Of a stretch of DNA of 23,641 nt, positions 3,227 through 9,762 are shown one piece after another (within the stretch, counting starts at the first letter, position 1; every line of letters starts with the position of its first letter). The DNA comes from a virus: the IMG/VR virus record IMGVR_UViG_3300030331_000835, positions 1 through 23,641 of that record; one strand, 5' to 3'. The notes beneath the pieces were generated by a model that did not search any database, was not told the origin of the DNA, and was given only the letters and a program-made list of their open reading frames with translations. Both the position numbers and the translations under genes were made by a program.

Positions 3227-3340
3227 GACGCACGGACGCACGGACGGAAGGAGGGGAAGGATAGAGTGGGACAGGGATAGATAGAGGCGACGGATAGAGT
3301 AGAGCGATAGAGTAGAGTGATAGAGTAGACTAGAGTAGAG
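3227..3340. repeat. Iterated direct repeats: GACGCACG x2 and GATAGAGTAGAG units with 13-bp period
   Basis: GACGCACG occurs twice in tandem (3227-3234, 3235-3242), followed by a third partial GACG. Then GATAGAGT occurs at 3260-3267, 3293-3300, 3306-3313 and 3319-3326; the last three lie exactly 13 bp apart within GATAGAGTAGAGY units, followed by a partial copy (AGAGTAGAGC). The + strand is almost all purine here. The array lies between a terminator and the promoter of the 137-aa gene, so it is outside the predicted transcripts and suits a protein-binding array such as an origin, packaging or operator region. Confidence 0.75.
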
Positions 3341-8033: not shown

Positions 8034-8062
8034 AGTTTAGTTACCAGCAAAACGAATGTAAA
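8034..8062 (-). promoter_or_regulatory. Promoter TTTACA-N17-TAAACT for 7919-8002 and 7428-7919
   Basis: TTTACA (8057-8062) and TAAACT (8034-8039) are spaced by 17 bp; the spacer ends in TGGTAAC, and TATATATAG follows the -10 box. Confidence 0.82.
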
Positions 8063-8299: not shown

Positions 8300-8480
8300 G
8301 GTCGGTGGTCACGGGAGTAAGGTCGCTAGTTTGCATACTCTTTGACATGTCTACCCAACAATAACCACCTATCTTATATGCCATCAAGTCTCGCCACGCA
8401 TCGTATTTTAACTTGTATCTTAGCCTACCCTTATTTGTGGAGCTTATCCCACTGCTTTGTAGGTAGCATATAATGTTCAA
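8271..8480 (-). CDS. Small unknown protein, 69 aa, TTG start
   Basis: The frame opens with TTG overlapping the stop of the MazG-like gene (TTGA), with only a weak AAGAAAGA ribosome site. An internal ATG 33 codons in is a possible alternative start. The protein has a basic N-terminal half (NKGRLRYKLKYDAWRDLMAY) and a polar end. The region is somewhat richer in GC than the neighbouring genes and runs into the inverted-repeat cluster at 8256-8299. I do not recognise it, and it may not be coding. Confidence 0.4.
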   Translation of the reverse strand: MNIICYLQSSGISSTNKGRLRYKLKYDAWRDLMAYKIGGYCWVDMSKSMQTSDLTPVTTDRAIDVSVYY

Positions 8481-8806
8481 TCTTTCTTAAATAATCCGTC
8501 CTCCAATTTACCTGTTCGGTCTTTTATTTCATCCCACACGTGTTCTAAACACTCTTCTAAGGTCATATTATGTTGTGCTGCTAATACAATCAACACCACT
8601 ACACAATCACCAATACCATCCATAACTCCTTGTGAATCTTTATAGGCTATAGCTTTGACAGTTTCACCTACTTCTTCCATAAGTTTCATCGTTTGTGCTT
8701 GTATATCGTGATACTTATAAGCATAACCTTTATACTCTGGTGAGTCTATAAGCAGACCACGTTCTTCAGCCCACTGTTCTATTTGTATTATTCTACCTTC
8801 TCTCAT
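8477..8806 (-). CDS. MazG-like nucleotide pyrophosphohydrolase
   Basis: MazG-type enzymes hydrolyse (d)NTPs to monophosphates and pyrophosphate. In phages they are thought to adjust nucleotide pools or interfere with ppGpp-like signals. The helical core shows the metal-binding pattern: MKLMEEVGETVKAI (EExxE at 44-48) and VMDGIGDCVVVLIVLA (ExxD-type second site, DGIGD at 63-67), then an amphipathic helix (MTLEECLEHVWDEIKDRTGKL). The length of 109 residues fits a single MazG-like domain. It is the fourth gene of the operon starting at 9582. With the hypermodification genes in this phage, a role in clearing unwanted nucleotides is plausible but unproven. Confidence 0.85.
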   Translation of the reverse strand: MREGRIIQIEQWAEERGLLIDSPEYKGYAYKYHDIQAQTMKLMEEVGETVKAIAYKDSQGVMDGIGDCVVVLIVLAAQHNMTLEECLEHVWDEIKDRTGKLEDGLFKKD

Positions 8807-9291: not shown

Positions 9292-9582
9292 TTAATACCC
9301 CTTACTCATGTGTTCGTAGCAGTTTTTACCATTTAACGATAAAGGTAAACCACATAAACATTTTTCTTCATTACCATAATGAACATCGAACCATATATCA
9401 AAAAAGTGGCTAACATCAGCAACTGTAATTTTCTTATAAGGTTCGTATATCCTATGGTAATCCCATATAGCTGAAGATACGAACTTATGTGCTCGTATTC
9501 TATCTTCATCTGACATATCTAAATAGAATGTTAACCTACTGATATGCCGTAATGTTTCGTCTAATATCTTTTGTAAATTCAT
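9292..9582 (-). CDS. Unknown small protein with C-terminal CxC...C motif, 96 aa
   Basis: Residues 1-75 are helical and aromatic (DETLRHISRLTFYLDMSDEDR, FVSSAIWDYHRIYEPYKK, HFFDIWFDVHY). The end carries CLCGLPLSLNGKNCYEH, whose cysteines and histidine could bind zinc. It is the first gene after a long structured leader (9583-9730) with a promoter at 9734-9762. It has the AGAAAGGAG site. The family is unknown; control by the leader structure is possible. Confidence 0.72.
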   Translation of the reverse strand: MNLQKILDETLRHISRLTFYLDMSDEDRIRAHKFVSSAIWDYHRIYEPYKKITVADVSHFFDIWFDVHYGNEEKCLCGLPLSLNGKNCYEHMSKGY

Positions 9583-9602
9583 ATATTCTCCTTTCTAAAA
9601 TC

Positions 9603-9682
9603 GGGTGTGTGCCAAGTGGGTCTACGTTAACCTTTGTCTTCCTTGGAGTTGCATGCGTAATTTTAAAACCTCTCACACACCC
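9603..9682 (-). promoter_or_regulatory. Structured 5' leader element, riboswitch-like, upstream of the 96-aa gene
   Basis: The outer stem pairs GGGTGTGTG (9603-9611) with CACACACCC (9674-9682), 9 bp. A second stem, CCAAG/CTTGG (9612-9616, 9642-9646), is directly adjacent to it, leaving a GCATGC-containing segment on one side. The element lies between the promoter (9734-9762) and the ribosome site, so it would be in the mRNA. I cannot match it to a named riboswitch class. Confidence 0.55.
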
Positions 9683-9686
9683 TTCG

Positions 9687-9721
9687 TAGCTGTAGTCAAA
9701 AATAATAAAATTCTACAGCTA
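9687..9721 (-). promoter_or_regulatory. Leader hairpin, 9-bp stem
   Basis: TAGCTGTAG (9687-9695) and CTACAGCTA (9713-9721) are perfect complements around 17 AT-rich bases. It would be the first structure in the transcript from the promoter at 9734-9762. Confidence 0.65.
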
Positions 9722-9733
9722 AAACTTACTAAT

Positions 9734-9762
9734 AGTTTACTTACCATAAACGCCAAAGTAAA
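9734..9762 (-). promoter_or_regulatory. Promoter TTTACT-N17-TAAACT for the five-gene operon 9582-8271
   Basis: TTTACT (9757-9762) and TAAACT (9734-9739) are spaced by 17 bp, with TGGTAAG just before the -10 box. TTTACTT/AAGTAAA (9736-9742, 9756-9762) also form a 7-bp inverted repeat across the promoter, a possible operator. Confidence 0.82.

Follow-up and report, generated by a model that had tools for sequence, protein, structure and literature searches.

One operon of this phage appears to begin with a long folded leader, and the question is whether this leader is a structured RNA and, if so, what it does for the genes behind it. The window, meaning the whole stretch of DNA that was analysed, comprises 23,641 nucleotides (positions 1 to 23,641 of the IMG/VR record IMGVR_UViG_3300030331_000835). 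An initial annotation had placed a structured cis-regulatory leader upstream of an operon with a MazG-like gene and had considered a ligand such as a nucleotide. The locus has the following features.

9734 to 9762, minus strand: sigma70-like promoter, TTTACT-17-TAAACT, one of 11 promoters in the window with this layout
9583 to 9596, minus strand: ribosome site AGAAAGGAGAAUAU, by direct reading
9292 to 9582, minus strand: 96-aa first gene, of no known family, with a model that is mostly helical
8477 to 8806, minus strand: MazG-like gene, fourth in the operon (PF03819, E 4.7e-06)

Direct reading of the minus strand gives a -35 box TTTACT (9762-9757), a 17-nt spacer, and a -10 box TAAACT (9739-9734), and transcription is expected to start near 9727. 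The SD AGAAAGGAG is found at 9596-9588 and the ATG begins at 9582, so that the leader measures approximately 145 nt from the expected start to the ATG. Small genes of 96, 70, and 80 aa are followed by the MazG-like gene on the same strand. No family could be assigned to the 96-aa product, and a fold search with its predicted structure (mean pLDDT 75.7) found no match at E<=0.001.

The promoter layout occurs in 11 copies in the window, nine of which form one 37-nt repeat family. All 11 sigma70-like promoters lie on the minus strand between 3732 and 14255, each ahead of a small-gene operon, and they mostly read TGCTTTAC, a 17-nt spacer, and a -10 box like TATACT or TAAACT. To judge by these letters, they are a compact promoter set for the phage group. 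According to a script run on the ORF list, the distance from start to gene is 0-49 nt at eight of the 10 other promoters, and the long leader was rightly set apart from the short ones elsewhere. The remaining two distances, 108 and 250 nt, depend on the start codon picked in the ORF list, and SD-ATG stretches were read by eye nearer to these promoters. Therefore, this is taken to be the sole comparably long structured leader among the 11. Another promoter with the -10 box TAAACT, the one that ends at 8034, seems to have a short leader.

Within the leader, three helices can be drawn.

9687 to 9721, minus strand: 5' hairpin H1, 9 bp, UAGCUGUAG/CUACAGCUA with a 17-nt loop (MFE fold and relatives)
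9603 to 9682, minus strand: core closed by P1, 9 bp, GGGUGUGUG/CACACACCC (MFE fold and relatives)
9612 to 9646, minus strand: P2 hairpin, CCAAG/CUUGG, which stacks on the P1 3' strand (relatives)

In the MFE fold, H1 pairs 9721-9713 with 9695-9687 and P1 pairs 9682-9674 with 9611-9603; the 9-bp hairpin and the 9-bp closing stem of the initial annotation are thus both recovered. The adjacent 5-bp stem that it also described, P2 (9646-9642 with 9616-9612), is missing from the MFE fold of the window alone but is backed by the relatives. The first base of H1 lies about 6 nt from the expected transcription start, and the SD is predicted to be mostly unpaired (0.83). Compared with shuffled sequences, the folding energy gave a z of -0.61 for 183 nt including promoter bases, and of -2.39 (140 nt) and -3.30 (126 nt) for the leader proper; over 13 distinct leaders, z ranged from -2.6 to -6.2. 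The P2 loop of the window carries a 16-nt insertion (about 9624-9639, minus strand), which is shared with L004 only and can make a small hairpin of its own with the 3' part of the loop.

The fold was compared among relatives. The 13 distinct leaders, the window included, were sorted by eye into four core types: type 1 (window, L006, L010, and L012), type 2 (L005, L007, L009, and L015), type 3 (L017), and type 4 (L016 and L018-L020). MAFFT alignment of whole leaders or cores was discarded, as it misaligned P1 in types 2 and 3; for this reason, RNAalifold saw only H1 and part of P1, and the strands were instead taken for each sequence by a pairing search. This search chose P2 unaided in nine of 13 leaders; one P2 pair in L006 and L012 and the P2 register of L019 and L020 were set by hand. 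Twenty pairs were counted on composites, namely eight in H1, seven in P1 (those common to all), and five in P2. Excluded were the ninth H1 pair (broken in L006), P1 pairs not found in all types, and the partial leader L013.

Over eight distinct rows, all 160 cells were paired (100%) and all 20 counted pairs were kept. Sliding the registers lowered pairing to 19-49%. Picking the registers for their pairing works in their favour, and the rows are related to one another; the shuffle counts that follow should therefore not be read as probabilities. Eight of the 20 pairs change on both sides (reached by 2/500 shuffles), 19 cells carry such changes (0/500), the covariation score is 0.412 vs 0.205 (0/500), and further pair types are no more numerous than in shuffles (363/500). 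The eight counted pairs of H1 are intact in 8/8 rows, with both sides changing in two and two more maintained via G-U. In P1, U-A is exchanged for C-G, and G-C, G-U, and A-U replace one another among relatives. Four of the five P2 pairs change on both sides across relatives and none is broken. This comparison shows that, in the stretch from promoter to start codon, compensatory changes maintain H1, P1, and P2. Covariation in relatives had been named beforehand as a check that could overturn the proposal; because it was found, with the fold intact in every row, a structured leader acting in cis is strongly supported. On the same evidence, selection keeps the architecture of the leader, not its sequence.

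Two further features involve the P1/P2 junction.

9619 to 9670, minus strand: possible pseudoknot, GGUUU (9670-9666) with AGACC (9623-9619), putative pairing for the window
9651 to 9656, minus strand: palindrome GCAUGC in the P1/P2 junction, a site occupied by another palindrome in each of the other core types

In seven of seven representatives, the window not among them, the best junction-loop duplex falls at the GG/UCG site. It joins a GG-containing junction strand to a CC-containing P2-loop strand, and in L017 UCGU is paired with ACGA instead. Matched junction-loop pairs bind better than swapped ones, and a fraction of 0.030 of permutations was as good. These data give moderate support to a pseudoknot between the P1/P2 junction and the P2 loop. 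The junction palindromes are GCAUGC, GUGCAC, CGCACGUGCG, and GUGUCGACAC by type (up to 14 nt in L020), and they lie 1-6 nt before P2 in each core type. Taken one by one, their lengths are weakly to modestly unusual (p 0.002-0.17; 0.45 for the hairpin of L014), bare 6-mer palindromes recur in the genomes, and the window holds an AU palindrome, UUUUAAAA, longer than GCAUGC. The palindromes of types 3 and 4 can also form small hairpins.

The core varies more than the promoter: in 15 pairs of leaders, identity was 88-100% in the promoter vs 52-100% in the core. The window is 91% identical to G003 overall, and 91-98% in tiles around the operon, yet the two differ in core type, whereas G001 and G006, only 83% identical to the window, share its type 1 letters. 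As read from these genomes, core type does not follow genome relatedness, and the core therefore seems to have been exchanged or diversified apart from the rest while its architecture was kept. A core swap between L006 and L012, which have identical cores and diverged neighbours, was considered and rejected; the whole phages are approximately 95% identical, so the neighbouring genes, and not the leader, are the odd part. G001, the record of L006, is about 95% identical to G006 overall, with a p96 region (L006 downstream of 2100) that belongs to the clade of the window, which by its sequence is a local gene swap beside the leader.

The element has a narrow distribution. The 96-aa gene was found in 17 IMG/VR contigs by protein and in 19 by its alignment; searches of prokaryote genomes (with the protein alignment) and of named phages found no relative. 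The named phages closest in DNA polymerase are 023Pt_psg01, pelagiphage HTVC023P, and phage DSL-LC04 (49-53% identity), so a pelagiphage is among the nearest named relatives of the group. The operon promoter, identical or nearly so among element-bearing relatives, matches as a pattern in 15 contigs and is single-copy in seven of the eight records asked. Among the 19 operon contigs, 15 carry the whole element, one a cut-off part, one a different hairpin, and two a plain short leader. The p96, p80, and MazG genes occur in 17/17 loci examined, with or without the element (L008 and L011, whose leaders equal those of L006 and L012, were excluded).

The exceptional contigs were inspected individually. 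L013 starts inside the element, at the contig end; in its positions 1-110, unrelated letters are fused to a type 2 core (its 3' half) with an L012-like gene adjoining, a junction that would be either a chimeric assembly or a recombination point. In L014 (about 2750-2830), another 9-bp hairpin, GUAGAUUGA/UCAAUCUAC, with CAUAUG in its loop, takes the place of the element. L054 (about 2720-2788) and L055 (about 2930-2997) have element-less leaders of about 30 nt, in which the promoter passes almost directly to the SD, and which on this layout are a natural deletion or the state before insertion. The -10 boxes of L054, L055, and L014 (TATACT/TATTAT, with TATACT in L054 and L055) are nearer the sigma70 consensus than the TAAACT of element-bearing leaders. 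These three leaders weakly suggest that the element makes up for the weaker TAAACT promoter.

MAFFT having misaligned P1 in two core types, the search for further copies used a descriptor in place of a covariance model. It returned one match per genome in six related genomes, each an already-known core of the leader, and 0 matches on one set of shuffled sequences. The copy in the window itself was missed, probably as its loop insertion exceeds the loop limit. Two extra matches, L065 and L079, were taken as chance. All 10 matches of a structure-based pattern fall in contigs of the already-collected phage group; three pattern matches outside the group (L062-L064) had no P1/P2 context by eye and were also taken as chance. 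A covariance-model search with Rfam 15 gave 0 matches in the window at the gathering score, in agreement with the initial failure to fit the glutamine, SAM, or preQ1 riboswitch consensus by eye. Permissive Rfam searches of four leaders yielded only miRNA, snoRNA, lncRNA, and one Mu RNA, all far below the cut-off. No description of the element was found in open-licence papers on phage structured RNAs, phage riboswitches, or the HTVC023P group, nor by a term search of the HTVC023P-type paper (PMC9599517). The element is a well-supported structured leader RNA, narrowly distributed, outside the Rfam families, and apparently new.

As to function, the first choice, a tentative one, is a structured leader that constitutively protects or insulates the operon mRNA. 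The leader RNA would form the first approximately 145 nt of this mRNA, one copy per phage, and once folded would act in cis and constitutively. It could protect the 5' region of the mRNA against decay in the host and keep the ribosome site clear of other pairing, and the operon would then be expressed more, or for longer, than its neighbours. A constitutive structural leader fits, as does a protein operator, because the SD is predicted to be open in types 1-3 (0.64-0.83 unpaired, nine of 13 leaders), no terminator-like site was seen, the letters outside helices are not conserved, and the element is dispensable. The protective reading is further supported by the covariation, by the isolated position of this leader among the 11 promoters, by the location of H1 near the expected start, and by the operon occurring without the element in 2/19 contigs and with another long hairpin in 1/19. 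The leaders of ompA and papA are known 5'-terminal stabilising stem-loops of bacterial mRNAs. They resemble the present leader, by predicted fold, in a hairpin near the 5' end and an open ribosome site, but the element here is larger, with nested P1/P2 and a possible pseudoknot. Several points count against stabilisation. A pseudoknot, an A-rich loop, or a palindrome would be superfluous in a purely protective leader. With roughly 6 unpaired nt ahead of it, H1 may lie too far from the end for the 5'-terminal hairpin effect reported for ompA. In type 4 (four leaders), the first SD-like stretch is predicted to be about half paired, its partners lying downstream (0.42-0.53 unpaired), and the TAAACT promoter at 8034 has a short-looking leader.

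The main rival, a translational or mRNA operator, is rather unlikely. A phage or host RNA-binding protein would recognise the pseudoknotted core and spread to, or block, the ribosome site. The gene 32 leader of T4 and RB69, on which gp32 autogenously represses its own synthesis, has the same layout of a folded 5' part and then an open ribosome site, according to PMC535899 and PMC3014915. Both are phage 5' leaders with a pseudoknotted (here possibly pseudoknotted) 5' part and an unstructured (here A/U-rich and predicted open) ribosome-site part; for this gp32-type arrangement, the permutation fraction and the predicted open SD of types 1-3 are the relevant figures. In contrast, a 9-bp outer stem closes the core here, another hairpin precedes it, and the following gene belongs to no known family. 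The divergence of the core is what a target might show if its protein diverged with it, but no candidate protein emerged, lineages differ in the first gene behind the leader, and few letters outside P1 and the A-rich loop are common to the core types.

It is improbable that the leader is processed to a free small RNA or contacts another RNA via its palindrome. Each core type has its own palindrome just before P2; however, the modest lengths and the alternative small hairpins of types 3 and 4 weaken the case, and antisense targets in the seven genomes or records searched were only stray 12-mers. A further reading is very doubtful: the core would be an allele-specific recognition RNA, two leaders of the same allele would kiss through its self-complementary junction, and the operon would sense transcript dose while the scaffold H1-P1-P2 stays. 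If true, the transcript sensed would be the operon's own or that of a sibling phage in the same cell, and alleles would diversify.

A small-ligand riboswitch, as first suggested, is also improbable and gained no positive support. The known riboswitches preQ1 and SAM-II are pseudoknotted, and the present element, likewise a short leader RNA, shares their stems and possibly their pseudoknot, here with covariation. It differs in having no Rfam match, no conserved binding letters, and no visible expression platform. Junction and loops vary in letters and length between core types while the helices are constant, and conserved letters are found mainly in helices and flanks. In the 13 leaders, the SD had no conserved pairing partner within the leader. 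The element is also limited to one phage group and dispensable for the operon. The MazG-like gene was correctly recognised, and the MazG operon is element-less in 2/19 contigs. Terminator, tRNA, and known-riboswitch readings of the leader were tested and dropped. A DNA-level operator, a repressor-bound palindrome with incidental RNA folds, is the least probable reading and was dropped: palindromes do lie a short way downstream of the promoter, but H1 and P1 pairs are partly kept through G-U, an RNA signature, and 12-mers over the whole palindrome occur elsewhere only as their own other strand (the type 3 genome lay outside this search).

Structured leaders of uncultured phages are little known, and this one is compact and comes with natural variants, element-less operons among them. 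Should it prove to serve as an operator for a protein or in RNA-RNA recognition, it would join the few pseudoknot leaders reported from phages. Elsewhere in the window, short degenerate repeats, GATAGAGTAGAG / ACGGACGGA, lie between two genes at 3231-3329.
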